A DNA stretch of 21,266 nt, from positions 1 to 21,266 of the IMG/VR virus record IMGVR_UViG_3300029893_000081, one strand, 5' to 3'. The notes below the pieces were generated by a model, which saw nothing but the letters and a program-made list of their open reading frames with translations, was not told the origin of the DNA and made no database searches. The translations under genes and the position numbers were made by a program. This document shows, piece by piece, positions 15,855 through 20,957 of this stretch. The DNA comes from a virus. Positions within the stretch are counted from its first letter, which is position 1. Each line of letters begins with the position of its first letter.

Positions 15855-16145
15855 TTAAACCTCTCTTCTAGGATTTATTCTTCTTATAATTTTTTTTGGT
15901 TTTATTTTTGGTGTCCTTTCAATTATTTCATCTTCCGTTTTATAGATTATATCCCTTATACTCAATTCGCCAAGGCAATGTTTAGCGGATATTTTTCTTA
16001 TAATTTCTTCTACGGTTTCTCCAACGCAGCTAATTTTCATTTCTTCAAATTCCAGGCGGATGCATTTGTTACGGTATGCCGTTTGATCTAAAATACCAAG
16101 ATGCTTTGCTGCAGTAGCTATGCTGTGAAGTATCTCTTCTTTCAT
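15855..16145 (-). CDS. Hypothetical protein in the gpW position
   Basis: This 96-residue ORF begins MKEEILHSIATAAKHLGILDQTAYRNKCIRLEFEEMKISC and ends in a basic tail (KIKPKKIIRRINPRREV). The start overlaps the large terminase stop as TAATG, so it is co-translated. The acidic helical N-terminus and basic C-terminus suggest a nucleic-acid or protein interaction role, but no family is recognised. A 173-base gap with two inverted repeats separates it from the gpW-like gene. Confidence 0.55.
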   Translation of the reverse strand: MKEEILHSIATAAKHLGILDQTAYRNKCIRLEFEEMKISCVGETVEEIIRKISAKHCLGELSIRDIIYKTEDEIIERTPKIKPKKIIRRINPRREV

Positions 16146-18184
16146 TAATTTCTTCTTGCCGCCATTCTTCTTTTTATCTTCTTTTTACTAATTGTTTTTT
16201 TAGTTTCTAATTTCAGCGGTTTTTCTAATTTTAAATTTTGTGCTTTTATTTCTTCATTATTTCTTAAACGATCGGCTTGCTTTTCAATATTTTTTTTGAG
16301 GATTGCGTCCGGCGCAGCATTAACATGTTGAATAGCACAAATTGCATAATACATTAAATCTACAACTTCATTTGCAGTATGCCGGTTTGGTTTTTCATAA
16401 ACATAATAAGAAATCATACCGGTATATTTCCGAACTAATCTTTCTGCGGAAAACTGTTTGAAAAAATCTTCGTTGCAATAACATTCCGGAAAATGAATAT
16501 ATTTAGGTCCGGGCGTGGATATTTTAAGTCGAGCATACAACTCTAATTTAGCTGCATTAGAACCGAGGTGTAAAAGTTTTGTTCTATTACCATCTACCCA
16601 TTGAAATGACCTTGGAAGAGGCGGAACTCCATAGCCACCTTTACCCTTAATTGCCCAAATTCCTTGCCGCTCTCTGCTTCTTGTATGACCATAAACTAAA
16701 TGGTGTTGATAACCTGAGTCTACAAATTGTCTTAGAACCGGAATTTTAACACCGTCCTTACGTTTCCATTTTGCTGTATAAATTTTATCTATATCCGTCC
16801 ATGCAGATTTATCAATCAATGGATTTTTAGGAATTACTTGATATAACAATACCCATAACTCGGTATCGGCACCAACACCAACCACCATTGTTTCTAATCG
16901 ATCCTTTTGTACATCCACTGTTTGAACAGCGTAAAATATTTCATTAGGTACTTCAAAAGGTTTATCCGGATTAATAAACGGCAACTCCCGTTTGCATCTA
17001 TCATATAGTTCGTTACTATCTGCACTTTCTTCACCGGCTCCGGCATCATAAGGTAATCCAAAATTTAAATTATAAAGAGCTTCAAGTTTTTCCGGGTTAT
17101 CTCCGGCATCAATAATTTTTTTTGCAAGCTCTTCCATACTGCTCATCTTACTGCAAAGATCATTAAACCAAAAACCGTAATGGTCTTTAATTTCCGGTCT
17201 TTCGGCAATCCAAATACCATTATCCAGCATGCTATGGCGTGTCTGCTCATCAATTGCACCACCACAATTATCACATGCATAAACTGTAGTTTCCGGATAA
17301 TGCTTTATTACCTTTTTCTTTTCAGCCGGTATATTTTGTTCAAACAGATTTTCTTCATAATCCTTATTCCATACCAAACGTTCGGGCTTAAAATAAAACA
17401 TCTCTCTACAATGCGGACACGTTACATAATACTTTTGCATATTCGATATATCATAAAGCGCGCTAATTCTACTCTCTCTTAAACGTGTTGGTGTAGACAC
17501 GTGGATATTTAATCCACGTCCTAAGCGTCTGTATGTTTTAGTGCGTGCTTTAAGACGCTCTACCGGATCTCCCTCTCTTTGCTGTCCAATTACGAGTTGA
17601 TCGGTATCATCATCAATTGTTAATTCGGCTGATCTTTGCCGGGTTCCGGCAGTTGATGAACCGGAAAATATTCTCATCCATCCGCCCGGAAATCTTTTTT
17701 TAAGAGTCGATTCCTTTTCCGTACTATTCTCTTTGCGAACATTCTTTACTTTTTTTCTTAACGATGGAGATTCATTTATCATGGGATCGAATTTCAGTTT
17801 TACGAAGTCGCGTGCATCGCTATCTGTTGGCAGCATGTACATAATTGAACATGGGCGGTGATCAATTCTTTCACCAACAATATTCATAACGGCTTCCGTT
17901 CCACCGGATTGAGCGGATTTCATGATAGTAATTTCACGCACATTTGGATTATTCGCTGCATCCATTATGCCTCTTAAGTGAGGCATATTAGATGTTTTCC
18001 ATTTACCCGGCATTACAGAATATTCCGGCAAATAACGGTTTTCGTCCGCCCATTGACTTACCGTTTGATCCGGTGGCGGCAATAAAAGACGCCTACATTC
18101 AATGCGTATTTTTTCAACGTTTGCAATAAACAGCTTACGAATGTATTCATCTGTAAAAGCAGTATTTTGTAAATGATTTATCAT
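16145..18184 (-). CDS. Terminase large subunit, GpA family
   Basis: The 679 residues contain the packaging ATPase Walker A-like SAQSGGTE (about residues 90-97) and an acidic Walker B-like ELTIDDDTDQ (about 188-197). A CPHC...CDNC zinc-binding pair lies near residues 257-308. The RNase H-like nuclease has acidic residues in TVDVQKDRLE (about D425), RQFVDSGYQHH (D490) and a C-terminal NEVVDLMYY. This is the lambda gpA type, which in studied phages cuts cos sites and drives DNA into the prohead. No cos sequence was recognised here. The ATG at 18184 is overlapped by the stop of a short upstream frame (ATGA). Confidence 0.95.
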   Translation of the reverse strand: MINHLQNTAFTDEYIRKLFIANVEKIRIECRRLLLPPPDQTVSQWADENRYLPEYSVMPGKWKTSNMPHLRGIMDAANNPNVREITIMKSAQSGGTEAVMNIVGERIDHRPCSIMYMLPTDSDARDFVKLKFDPMINESPSLRKKVKNVRKENSTEKESTLKKRFPGGWMRIFSGSSTAGTRQRSAELTIDDDTDQLVIGQQREGDPVERLKARTKTYRRLGRGLNIHVSTPTRLRESRISALYDISNMQKYYVTCPHCREMFYFKPERLVWNKDYEENLFEQNIPAEKKKVIKHYPETTVYACDNCGGAIDEQTRHSMLDNGIWIAERPEIKDHYGFWFNDLCSKMSSMEELAKKIIDAGDNPEKLEALYNLNFGLPYDAGAGEESADSNELYDRCKRELPFINPDKPFEVPNEIFYAVQTVDVQKDRLETMVVGVGADTELWVLLYQVIPKNPLIDKSAWTDIDKIYTAKWKRKDGVKIPVLRQFVDSGYQHHLVYGHTRSRERQGIWAIKGKGGYGVPPLPRSFQWVDGNRTKLLHLGSNAAKLELYARLKISTPGPKYIHFPECYCNEDFFKQFSAERLVRKYTGMISYYVYEKPNRHTANEVVDLMYYAICAIQHVNAAPDAILKKNIEKQADRLRNNEEIKAQNLKLEKPLKLETKKTISKKKIKRRMAARRN

Positions 18185-18291: not shown

Positions 18292-18441
18292 TCAACATGA
18301 GAACGCTAATGGATTTGTCTTCGGGAATGAGATTTTTATAACAATAGTCGGTATTAGACAAACATAAAGTATCTGTTTAGATTTATCCCAATAAGCCCCA
18401 ATCCAGAAATAGAACCATGCAAAGAATACTTCAATTTTCAT
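18292..18441 (-). CDS. 49-aa phage protein (short W/Y-rich)
   Basis: This ORF reads MKIEVFFAWFYFWIGAYWD, then KSKQILYVCLIPTIVIKI, and a short tail SFPKTNPLAFSC. AGAGGAG lies at good spacing before the ATG. Small proteins with the pattern FxWYxxWIGxYxDxxxxxLYVC are, from memory, common in tailed phages and have no assigned role. The first 37 residues fit that pattern; the last 12 do not and may be out-of-place sequence. The upstream 17-codon frame overlaps its start as ATGA. Confidence 0.5.
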   Translation of the reverse strand: MKIEVFFAWFYFWIGAYWDKSKQILYVCLIPTIVIKISFPKTNPLAFSC

Positions 18442-18491: not shown

Positions 18492-18525
18492 TCTACTTTT
18501 CAACCCGCTCCGCTCGGATTACTAA

Positions 18526-18580
18526 CTAACGGATGGAGGCGAACTTGAGGCGTGTCGCCTCATCCGCCGCCACTGTTAGC
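18526..18580 (-). repeat. attC-like recombination site A (best of four)
   Basis: On the minus strand the site begins GCTAAC-AGTGGCGG and ends CCATCC-GTTAG, so the outer arms pair as CTAAC/GTTAG. Internally CGGATGAGGCGA pairs with TCGCCTCCATCCG, leaving one unpaired G, as in the extrahelical bases of integron attC sites. About 55 bases in all. No T-tract follows, which argues against a terminator. It lies at the 3' end of the 62-aa ORF, whose stop codon is inside it. Confidence 0.5.
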
Positions 18581-18748
18581 GTGAAATTTGCTAACAGTAT
18601 CTTTTACTCTTTGTTTTATTGCTCTTAATAAATTTTCTACGTCTTTAGCTTCGCAAGGGTAAGTTTTTATAATCCGTTCATCTCCAGTTAAAAAATTATC
18701 AAGCCAATTAGTAGGTATGCAGTTTATCACCTCGTTCGCAAATTTCAC
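18560..18748 (-). CDS. Cassette-like ORF 3, small conserved-looking protein
   Basis: The 62 residues are read from a GTG that directly follows the GTTAG end of site B. The core CIPTNWLDNFLTGDERII, then a Cys-containing stretch and DVENLLRAIKQRVKD, resembles small uncharacterised proteins with a PTNWLDPLLTG motif that I recall from environmental and mobile DNA. Function is unknown. The stop lies in site A. The start is uncertain, because GTG at 18748 has no clear ribosome-binding site and an internal GTG also exists. The coding ends are enclosed by a 17-base inverted repeat. Confidence 0.5.
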   Translation of the reverse strand: MKFANEVINCIPTNWLDNFLTGDERIIKTYPCEAKDVENLLRAIKQRVKDTVSKFHANSGGG

Positions 18749-18754
18749 GCTAAC
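18575..18754. repeat. 17-base inverted repeats flanking the 62-aa ORF
   Basis: GTTAGCGTGAAATTTGC at 18575-18591 is repeated in perfect inverted orientation at 18738-18754, with 146 bases between. At 18575 the repeat also runs into GCTAAC, making a local palindrome GTTAGC/GCTAAC. The outer six bases are the GTTAGC recombination-type core. This may reflect cassette duplication/inversion or a minimal mobile unit. Confidence 0.7.
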
Positions 18755-18815
18755 TTCCGGCTGTACTCCGACCTCGCTCGCTCGGTCGGATAAAAATTTA
18801 TCTAAACCCGTTATG
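18750..18815 (-). repeat. attC-like recombination site B
   Basis: On the minus strand it runs from CATAAC (18815) to GTTAG (18750), with an inner 7-base stem TCCGACC/GGTCGGA around a CGAGCGAGCG-type loop. The stop codon of the 136-aa ORF lies just outside the stem, within the site. The two internal flanks are unequal (about 19 and 12 bases), so the L-box structure is poor. It is weaker than site A. Confidence 0.4.
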
Positions 18816-19208
18816 CCGTAAAATTGATTCTATCAAAGGGTTTAAGAGCAATTCCTCAAATCTTCCAAATAGTTTTTGCGCTTCTGATGGTAATCGTAAT
18901 TCCAAATAATCAATATGTTTCTTCACAAACGTTTCTTTCTTTTTGTTAAGAGGTTCATATTTCTCAATAGTAATGTTATGTATGTCTCCAATGTTATGGT
19001 TATTAATTCTGACTGTGTAACCGAAAACTTGTAACCCGCTTATATATTCATCAATTTTCCGCATAACAAACGGTTCAATTTGACAGCTATATTCTTCTAA
19101 TAGTTTTACTAAGCCACTCCAATCGGCAAAAGTTGGTGTTGAAAATTCGTTTAATGATTTATCTGGTGGTATAAAATATTTCTTTCTTAAAAAATTATAT
19201 GCTTCCAT
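18798..19208 (-). CDS. Cassette-like ORF 2, hypothetical protein
   Basis: The 136 residues begin MEAYNFLRKKYFIPPDKSLNEFS and include VRINNHNIGDIHNITIEKYEPLNKKKE and EAQKLFGRFEELLLNPLIESILRHNGFR. It is soluble, mixed alpha/beta and of unknown function; no family is recognised. It has the strongest ribosome-binding site of the island, AAGGAG with 5 bases before the ATG. A 45-base leader holds site C and its stop lies in site B. Self-contained gene plus leader plus downstream recombination-type site is how promoterless integron cassettes are built. Confidence 0.65.
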   Translation of the reverse strand: MEAYNFLRKKYFIPPDKSLNEFSTPTFADWSGLVKLLEEYSCQIEPFVMRKIDEYISGLQVFGYTVRINNHNIGDIHNITIEKYEPLNKKKETFVKKHIDYLELRLPSEAQKLFGRFEELLLNPLIESILRHNGFR

Positions 19209-19240
19209 TTTATCTCCTTTTGTTGTTTACGCTGCAAATT

Positions 19241-19280
19241 AACCGCCACTCCGTTAGCCAGACCTTCGCTCGCAGTTATC
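19241..19280 (-). repeat. attC-like site C, degenerate
   Basis: On the minus strand GATAAC...GGCTAAC-GGAGTGGCG-GTTAA lies between ORF 1 and ORF 2. It shares the string AGTGGCGG, near CTAAC, with site A. A complete attC with two paired box sets cannot be drawn, so it is a degenerate or partial site. The ORF 1 stop codon falls within GGCTAAC. Confidence 0.35.
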
Positions 19281-19439
19281 TACAATTAAAGTTACTGTTT
19301 CAAAATTATCTGGCTCTAAATAATTTTCTCGGCTTAAATTTTCTTGTGCTGATTTTTCGTTTATGAATAATTCGTAATGATGTGTGTCTAAAATCTTTTT
19401 TCTATCTTTAGGTAAATTCATATAATATCTTTCTGCCAA
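19254..19439 (-). CDS. Cassette-like ORF 1, hypothetical protein
   Basis: The frame encodes 61 residues from an in-frame TTG (MAERYYMNLPKDRKKILDTHHYELFINEKSAQENLSRENYLEPDNFETVTLIVDNCERRSG). The frame is open further upstream, through site D into phage-like sequence, so the true start is unclear; an ATG at MNLPKD is another candidate. No family is recognised. The stop is inside GGCTAAC. The sequence could be the 5' cassette of the island or the fused tail of a disrupted phage gene. Confidence 0.45.
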   Translation of the reverse strand: MAERYYMNLPKDRKKILDTHHYELFINEKSAQENLSRENYLEPDNFETVTLIVDNCERRSG

Positions 19440-19605
19440 AGGTTCGCTCGGCTGGCTAACAAGCGTCTCAGCCCGATTTGCTTTATCCTCGACTTCTTCT
19501 TGTTTATCTGCAAGAAGATGTTTGAGATTGATATAACCAATTAGTTGATGAACTGCTTCGTAAACTTTGTTGTATTCGGTTGTTTCTATTAGTTAAGTTT
19601 TCCAT
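19440..19605 (-). pseudogene. Frameshifted phage gene, 5' part
   Basis: ATG at 19605 is preceded by GAGG and starts MENLT, but the frame soon diverges. Shifting by one base after ACTAA gives a long protein-like reading, IETTEYNKVYEAVHQLIGYI, then NLKHLLADKQEEVEDKANRAETLVS. This continues into ORF 1 across site D. A single inserted base (a real mutation or an assembly error) would explain it. The gene follows the small terminase and seems to be a small helical phage protein disturbed by the cassette island. Confidence 0.5.
19454..19475. repeat. attC-like half-site D at the island's 5' edge
   Basis: On the plus strand this reads GGCTAAC-AAGCGTC-TCAGCCCGA, very close to the left half of known attC sites (core CTAACAA, spacer, TCAAGCC-type L box). 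On the minus strand it ends in GTTAGCC. Only one half is present, as expected at the first recombination junction of a cassette insertion. Confidence 0.45.
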
Positions 19606-19662
19606 CTTATTACCTCGTTTTTGTTTGATTAAAATGTCCATTACTTTTTATCGGCAAATCCG

Positions 19663-20181
19663 TTATACTCCTTCATCATTATCTACCTCAACAATTTCAT
19701 CAGGTTCGTTAAACCTAAGTTCATTGCCAAGTTGATTTTTAATTTCTCTTATATTTTTTTTTATTAATTCTCTTTTCTTCTCCTCGTCGTGTAAGTTTTT
19801 AAGAGCCATCGTTAAATTGTATTCCAGCGCATCCAAAGATGAGCGCAAAGATGTAATCTCGTTTGCCCACGCAATATTTGCAAGATCCCTATCTACTACA
19901 CGTTGTAATTCTTTCATCAATTTTACTTTACGCATCTGATTAGTAAGCTGTGCTCCTTCCTGTTCTAACTTATACAAAGTTTCATCACCCAATTTTAACT
20001 TTTCTATTTCCTTTTCGAGATATTCATTTCTCCACTGGCAGCATTCAACAAAATCATACTCGCCGCGTCCTAATTTTGGCATACCAAGTTCACTAGCCCA
20101 ATATTGTATAGTTCGTACATCTTTTTTAAAAAACTTGGCCAGTACCTCTACACTTACAATATTTCCAGTTGTTGTACTCAC
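19663..20181 (-). CDS. Terminase small subunit, Nu1-like
   Basis: The 172 residues have an N-terminal winged helix-turn-helix: NIVSVEVLAKFFKKDVRTIQYWASELGMPKLGRGEYDFVECCQW, residues about 6-50, with the R-TIQ-W recognition pattern of lambda Nu1. A long charged coiled coil follows (YLEKEIEKLK... and the C-terminal KKRELIKKNIREIKNQLG). Nu1-type proteins bind cos-region DNA and hold the large subunit. The gene overlaps the radical SAM stop as ATGA. Normally the large subunit would follow at once; here about 1.5 kb intervenes. Confidence 0.85.
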   Translation of the reverse strand: MSTTTGNIVSVEVLAKFFKKDVRTIQYWASELGMPKLGRGEYDFVECCQWRNEYLEKEIEKLKLGDETLYKLEQEGAQLTNQMRKVKLMKELQRVVDRDLANIAWANEITSLRSSLDALEYNLTMALKNLHDEEKKRELIKKNIREIKNQLGNELRFNEPDEIVEVDNDEGV

Positions 20182-20957
20182 GCAAACGATGGAACGTTTA
20201 AATAATCCATAGCAATTTCTTGTTCGGTTAATAATCCTTTTCGCACTTCTTTCTGTAATGTTTGCTTTATGTAAAACCGTTTATTATTTATACGCATCAT
20301 CGGAATAATCCTATTAATAAAAGATTTCCAATCACGTAACTGTTTATCCCCGCTTAACTTTCCAAATTGATATTCATCTACATAAGCAATTGTTCTTTCA
20401 ATCAAATTAATTGTCTGCTCAAAGTGTATAATGGGTTCAAAACTCACCCATGTATGCACACCATTTAAATGAAATTGTTTTAGCATTTCAATTCTTTCCG
20501 ATGGAAGCGCCGCACCGCGCTCTATACGTTTACTGTCGTTATCATTATCATAGGTGAGGGATGCACCCACCTTAATATGATTATCAAATAATTTTATTGT
20601 GGATAAATCCTTTAGCGGTTTAATTCCGCTCTTAGTAAGAATAGCAACCGGTATTTTATAATTTAAAAATATTTTGAGTGCCTCCGTTGTTAGCTGCAAT
20701 TTATCATTAAGCGGATTATATGGGTCTGTTGTAAAGCTCATGAGTACCTGGTTTTTTGTACCTGTATATTTCTTTGCGGATTTAATGAGTTGTTCTATGG
20801 AGCGTTCTCGTGCTTTCGGGTTATTATCAAAATCGTATCGGTCCATGTGCAATACACGCGGAACGTAACAGTAGCTGCACTGGTGTCCGCATCCGGTGTA
20901 AAGATTAACCGCTAATGGAGAATATTCGCGTGCCTTACCCCTCGGTTCGTAAATCAT
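20178..20957 (-). CDS. SPL-family radical SAM protein
   Basis: This 259-residue protein has the radical SAM iron-sulphur motif CGHQCSYC (C23, C27, C30; C-x3-C-x2-C). The sequence around it, PLAVNLYTGCGHQCSYCYVPRV, is typical of the spore-photoproduct-lyase-like radical SAM proteins (Rv2578c type). VLMSFTTDPYNPLN, VAILTKSG, KVGASLTY and GVHTWVSFEPI follow, as in that family. The 4Fe-4S cluster would cleave S-adenosylmethionine to make a radical; the substrate is unknown. It is co-translated with the neighbours by ATGA overlaps on both sides. Confidence 0.9.
   Translation of the reverse strand: MIYEPRGKAREYSPLAVNLYTGCGHQCSYCYVPRVLHMDRYDFDNNPKARERSIEQLIKSAKKYTGTKNQVLMSFTTDPYNPLNDKLQLTTEALKIFLNYKIPVAILTKSGIKPLKDLSTIKLFDNHIKVGASLTYDNDNDSKRIERGAALPSERIEMLKQFHLNGVHTWVSFEPIIHFEQTINLIERTIAYVDEYQFGKLSGDKQLRDWKSFINRIIPMMRINNKRFYIKQTLQKEVRKGLLTEQEIAMDYLNVPSFA

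Follow-up and report, generated by a model that had tools for sequence, protein, structure and literature searches.

The virus record analysed here, which we refer to as the window (21,266 bases, IMGVR_UViG_3300029893_000081), carries between its terminase genes TerS and TerL an island that we consider, with a probability of roughly 0.7, to be an integrase-less attC cluster of the CALIN type, consisting of two to three cassettes with reversed genes, the attC sites of which oppose the phage operon. As part of the best explanation, the phage would infect Melioribacteraceae or a close relative. A cassette array without its integrase had originally been predicted at this position, and the prediction is borne out in substance: no TIGR02249 match to an integron integrase was found anywhere in the record, one of the sites scores far above chance, and the terminase genes of four related loci leave no gap. 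The orientation implied at the time was wrong, however, in that the attCs are read on the plus strand, and while the location between the terminase genes stands, the island may extend to 19662, beyond the end at 19460 that had been proposed.

Results

The main genes of the record all lie on the minus strand, and a portal (PF05136) and a capsid protein (PF05065) were also identified among them by profile match. The gap between TerS and TerL is 1.48 kb in length and holds three small minus-strand ORFs together with four attC-type sites, arranged as follows (positions are those of the window).

16145-18184, minus: TerL of the GpA type (PF05876, 7e-64; PF20454, 9.5e-57)
18522-18581, plus: attC-like site A, an imperfect hairpin
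18560-18748, minus: ORF c3, 62 aa, GTG start, reversed in cassette 1; codon use coding-like, 0.18 bits/codon
18576-18810, plus: cassette 1, 235 bp; R'/R'' GTTAGCGTG / CACGCTAAC, complementary 9/9
18748-18816, plus: site B, R'' CGCTAAC (18748-18754), R' G|TTATGC (18810-18816); hairpin limited to an inner 7 bp
18798-19208, minus: ORF c2, 136 aa, ribosome-binding site AAAGGAG, reversed in cassette 2
18811-19253, plus: cassette 2, 443 bp; R'/R'' GTTATGC / GCATAAC, complementary 7/7
19061-19259, plus: attC C, full site of ~199 bp; 34.0 bits, 19/20 host consensus pairs
19254-19439, minus: ORF c1, 61 aa as called
19254-19662, plus: cassette 3, 409 bp; R'/R'' GTTAGCCAG / CTGGCTAAC, complementary 9/9
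about 19453-19668, plus: candidate attC D, strong left half R''-L'' (TGGCTAACAAGCGTCTCAGCCCGATTTGC from 19453), weak right half
19663-20181, minus: TerS (phrog_57, E 1.6e-17), 34-46% identical to the TerS homologues of loci L081 and L082

No gap of this kind exists in four related phage loci (L081, L082, L084 and L085), where TerS overlaps TerL. Close viral relatives, sought among the viral contigs by TerS, c2 and c3, were not found; as a near relative without the island is absent from the collections, we infer the empty site from phages with 23-46% TerS identity.

The three short ORFs do share one orientation, as predicted, and each stop lies at, or within 15 nt of, a CTAAC or CATAAC box. In codon use the ORFs are like the small genes of the phage itself, from which the plus-strand frames differ. 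None of the three has a significant match in Pfam, PHROGs or the defence families, and Rfam likewise gave no match. Searches of the viral contigs gave no credible homologue of c2 or c3, and neither did those of the family's 79 genomes (c2) and of 391 genomes of the class (c3); homologues in integrons, which the original prediction would have led one to expect, are thus lacking from every integron and phage searched, and the same ORFs do not occur as fixed genes of related phages. Two apparent homologues were rejected, that of c2 in genome G016 (E 0.003) as a chance match to a presumed dnaA region, where stops interrupt the aligned frame, and that of c3 in G101 (E 0.002) as not credible, with 41 aa matched at 34% in GC-rich sequence. 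The frame of c1 is open up to about 19600 (112 codons upstream), which suggests that the gene is longer than called and may have a frameshift close to its start, be it in the gene or in the assembly. An ATG with a ribosome-binding site is present near 19616 (19254-19641, minus), in a frame other than that of c1.

Two further readings of the gap were dropped: a C-terminus of TerS displaced downstream (33 startless codons precede TerL), because TerS is close to its homologues in length without it, and a phage gene interrupted at GTTAG between 19460 and 18530 (joined flanks ...ETLVS*), which we consider less likely because the left half of D is attC-like. Among the neighbouring minus-strand genes, a radical SAM protein just upstream of TerS (20178-20957; PF04055, phrog_13321 and, weakly, phrog_9252 DNA repair photolyase) is an unusual companion for a terminase, and a 49-aa phage-like small protein (18292-18441; phrog_21976, E 0.008), the start of which overlaps the stop of a 17-21 aa ORF, is encoded between site A and TerL.

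The sites themselves were examined with half-site matrices (R''-L'' and L'-R') that were learned from host arrays beside integrases, where the gene direction is known, and run on both strands of the window. Site C is a convincing full attC and the only one of the four sites that is clear-cut, while A and D are supported less strongly. It had been recognised as attC-type from the box near 19250, but the full site spans 19061 to 19259, from an R'' box GCATAAC (19061-19067) to an R' box G|TTAGCC (19253-19259), with arms L'' GGTT[C]AATTTG[A]CAGC and L' GCTGCAAATTAACC. The pair score of 34.0 bits compares with 11.1 for the best of 300 shuffles, and of 36,958 shuffled TAAC/GTTA pairs one reached 18 of the host pairs and none reached 19. 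On the bottom strand, C folds as ...GGTT AATTTG CAGC ... GCTG T CAAATT G AACC..., which leaves an extrahelical T and G in the L'' arm; such unpaired bases are a textbook feature of attC sites, and among the four sites they are seen in C only. The best right half in the window is likewise that of C (plus, 19227-19259), and the two best left halves begin at plus 19061 (C) and plus 19454 (D), the latter scoring 16.1 against 1.4 for the next match outside the island.

Site A, predicted to be an imperfect hairpin, proved to be one (fold z = -4.9 as plus-strand DNA and -4.2 as minus-strand DNA). It is bounded by an R'' box CTAAC at 18526-18530, which overlaps a CTAAC before it, and an R' box G|TTAGCG at 18575-18581. 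Of the 212 TAAC...GTTA-anchored stems in the 21-kb window, A and C are the two best, with scores of 31-32 where shuffled windows reach a mean maximum of 24.5, and the sequence that the two had been noticed to share next to CTAAC is AGTGGCGG. There are unpaired bases in the L'' arm of A also, but of another kind than those in C. Running an attC covariance model had been proposed as a check; a model that we built from host attCs returned A as the best window match (plus, 13.3 bits), a weak result that is not significant at E = 0.39, and this model cannot accommodate the 150-nt loop of site C. Site B, which had also been put forward as an attC, is poorly formed as one (fold z about 0); its R boxes are complementary to their partner boxes in the two flanking cassettes. 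The left half of D agrees with the earlier description of an attC left half, being one of the window's two best, and its right half ends in G|TTATAC (19662-19668), where TerS stops; the pair score of 12.6 (19454-19668) lies just above the 300-shuffle maximum of 11.1, with 11/20 consensus pairs formed. The core boxes R'' (AAC) and R' (GTT) can pair in A, C and D. Within this 21-kb fragment, the cluster comprises one strong site (C), one moderate site (A) and one half site (D).

When cassettes are delimited by cutting between G and TT, each begins with bases that are reverse-complementary to the R'' box close to the opposite end (9, 7 and 9 bp), and at the ends of cassette 1 the inverted repeat reaches 21 nt at 95%. 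Judged by their sequence, such complementary ends are as expected if the cassettes had passed through a circular form. On the right, the last cut coincides with the TerS stop codon (G|TTA on the plus strand, TAA|C on the minus strand): the TTA that follows cassette 3 is complementary to the stop TAA at 19663-19665. An R' box G|TTA is either the antisense of the TAA stop of the upstream gene or lies 8-15 nt before that stop.

The plus-strand polarity of the attCs is opposed to all three island ORFs and to the minus-strand phage operon. The 5' ends of the ORFs lie inside or near an attC (the ATG of c2 sits 51 nt inside attC C), and no attC is found at a 3' end, so that the description of promoterless single ORFs with an attC at the 3' end does not apply, the genes running counter to the attCs. 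In L082, a second phage locus in the family, TerL is directly followed by three attCs (64.9, 29.2 and 16.4 bits, the strongest at 1837-1967), which again oppose the genes; the genes begin 33-62 nt inside the attC and include a C5 cytosine methyltransferase, and in 2/3 sites the upstream stop codon lies within the R' complement.

The wider occurrence of this arrangement was surveyed by three pattern scans of 2.9 million viral contigs, which were blind to gene direction and biased toward Melioribacteraceae-like attCs, at a cut-off of our own choice (pair score of at least 24; the best of 210 shuffles scored 15.2). Gene direction was then assessed within 1 kb of each attC. The first count of phage attCs gave 17 opposite (two of them in L082), 2 same and 6 mixed, and the third scan 4, 1 and 0, for an overall 21 opposite, 3 same and 6 mixed, whereas the same test on host attCs returned 41 same, 0 opposite and 3 mixed. 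Some of the viral records overlap or are duplicated (L155 with L373, L318 with L323), and the inversion is therefore supported by about 13 independent phages; two sites counted as same, in L246 (attC inside a 1122-aa ORF) and L227 (58 nt), are apparent false matches. A strong attC of 71.3 bits in canonical direction occurs on a piece of viral contig L374, which is either a counter-example or host DNA.

A terminase was recognised by phrog_2 in 8/11 inverted-attC records and by phrog_15 in L165, and none of the 11 phage records tested has an integron integrase. Open frames of about 110-280 codons cross the sites opposite to the attC strand in most phages and rarely in hosts. The phage stems are retained through compensatory change, with a covariation of 0.411 versus 0.140 in shuffles and 88% of cells paired, a figure that leans high because the poorest-pairing sites were left out of the 20-site alignment. 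Pseudomonas phage Medea1, an isolated phage that was checked for an inverted leader, yielded no attC.

Among the 79 genomes of Melioribacteraceae, 32 encode an integrase above the cut-off, and the attCs of these hosts form a 20-pair stem with 91.3% of cells paired and a covariation score of 0.367 (0.110 in shuffles). The sedentary chromosomal integrons of the family (in G001, G062 and others) have in common with the phage sites the R''-L'' / L'-R' sequence plan, the 20-pair stem, the extrahelical base and lengths of 58-225 bp; they differ in having their own integrase and attI, and in that gene direction equals attC polarity in 41/44 and is opposite in none. Downstream (3') of the integrase gene, and on its strand, come an attI-like site and cassettes (L023 1-240; L053-L072), a layout of integrase followed by array that is unlike that of class 1 integrons, and many contigs end there. 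The first attC after the integrase in G073 (L065, 2460-2640) has lost the R'' box; a perfect inverted repeat, GGAGCGGCGGAT / ATCCGCCGCTCC, is still present there and is similar to sites A and C of the window.

Over 5,480 bases the window is identical to a contig binned in a MAG named Melioribacter roseus (Melioribacteraceae), and it is by the binning of this identical contig that the phage is tied to an integrase-encoding host; the contig probably stems from the same sample as the window and does not, for that reason, constitute independent evidence. The IntI of this MAG (425 bits, cut-off 265) is followed ~190 bp beyond its stop by an attI-like AAGTAATAG|TTAGGC, after which the contig ends in an apparent first cassette, and attCs are also scattered at several other places in the MAG. 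A search of the MAG for GTTAGCGTGAAATTTGC returned only the phage copies and chance matches with three mismatches.

Discussion

In the explanation that we favour, the mRNA-sense strand corresponds to the attC bottom strand, which, when single-stranded, would fold into a hairpin that the host integron integrase recognises; acting in trans, this enzyme could excise the cassette or insert it into another G|TT. Where that target is antisense to a TAA|C stop codon, the upstream gene would be spared, and the reversed cassette genes, being co-directional with the phage late operon, would be read from it. With the upstream gene left intact, this polarity would be tolerated in a compact operon of one direction, in which only cassettes with reversed genes would be expressed; tolerated landing sites on the antisense of stop codons would then be enough to explain the polarity. 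That the host integrase moves the cassettes, that their genes are expressed and that this orientation is selected for are inferred. A broader proposal, to which we would give somewhat less than an even chance, is that the inverted cassette constitutes a distinct form in phages of Bacteroidota-like hosts, and perhaps of others: a bottom-strand gene that starts in the attC and stops at a TAA antisense to the core site, and that drops in behind any TAA-C stop, is read at once and is moved by the host integrase, with anti-restriction and nucleic-acid enzymes among its cargo.

The hairpins might instead be relics of attCs that are no longer moved and now serve as fixed intergenic or leader structures, such as RNA hairpins near gene starts. 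The inverted layout does place the same hairpin in the mRNA near the start codon, sites B and D are degenerate, and the 11 phage records lack an integrase; even so, we regard this as unlikely, given that the R boxes and the unpaired G and T of an attC are retained, that the complementary cassette ends are best explained by a circular intermediate, and that the phage stems are maintained by compensatory change. Far less probable is a canonical cassette array in the direction of the ORFs, on the minus strand, as had been implied originally, despite the ORFs ending at or near CTAAC/CATAAC boxes and the c2 ribosome-binding site following shortly after a putative site C. In the minus orientation C has an R''-L'' score of -55, whereas the plus orientation provides the window's best L'-R' match, and the 7/7 complementarity of the ends of cassette 2 is present only when the array is read on the plus strand; it was on the matrix scores and these ends that the minus-strand array was rejected. 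That the island merely holds ordinary phage genes amid chance palindromes seems to us the least probable account of all, for chance is a very unlikely source of site C by the shuffles, and the window's other high-scoring half site falls within the same 1.1 kb. The codon use is phage-like, phages often carry extra genes, and the island proteins are orphans, as such an account would have it.

That the integrase-less cluster lies in a phage is not without precedent, and the phage route for cassettes, which had been thought unusual, is not wholly unknown. Qi et al. 2023 described 17 attC clusters in phages, and IntI1 recombined 5/6 of the phage attC sites tested (PMC9892861). Those phage CALINs resemble the present island in combining an attC-type cluster with small ORFs, without an integrase, inside a phage, and resemble the phages surveyed here in their methyltransferase cargo (L082, L243 and L256). 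Phage TJE1 of the same work differs, its locatable attCs running with the genes where those of the window and about a dozen other phages oppose them; as the TJE1 sites agree with gene direction, the inversion is not universal. Divergent attC directions were noted in P12002L, with no consistent inversion reported (PMC9892861). No account of consistent attC inversion was found in the open PMC literature (subscription journals and preprints being outside the scope).

Cassettes are also able to insert at genomic sites other than attI, termed attG. Such insertion sites are named in PMC12901181, and the last island boundary, which lies at a lone G|TT of the phage coding sequence (the TerS stop codon), is similar to them, with the difference that the putative target of the island is antisense to the stop codon. 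Compared with a canonical integron cassette, those of the island agree in their complementary R'/R'' ends and differ in the direction of attC relative to gene; compared with a complete integron, the island has no adjacent intI and attI.

Integrons have been studied as bacterial gene-capture platforms, the cassettes of which are read from a promoter beside the integrase. Our observations suggest that phages have their own way of using this system. If the inversion is consistent, phages exploit the same recombination system under other rules, namely operon read-through and stop codons as landing sites, and would represent a second reservoir and vehicle for cassettes; the entry and exit of cassettes in phage genomes without an integron integrase of their own thereby becomes a testable question. 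As a practical rule for finding them, inverted arrays can escape gene-direction filters or models with limited loop length. The genes of inverted cassettes (those of L243, L256, L274, L082 and the window) often encode an N-terminal (G)[QR][VIF][DE]xLV, which is the attC left half translated in reverse and a possible protein-level signature of such cassettes.
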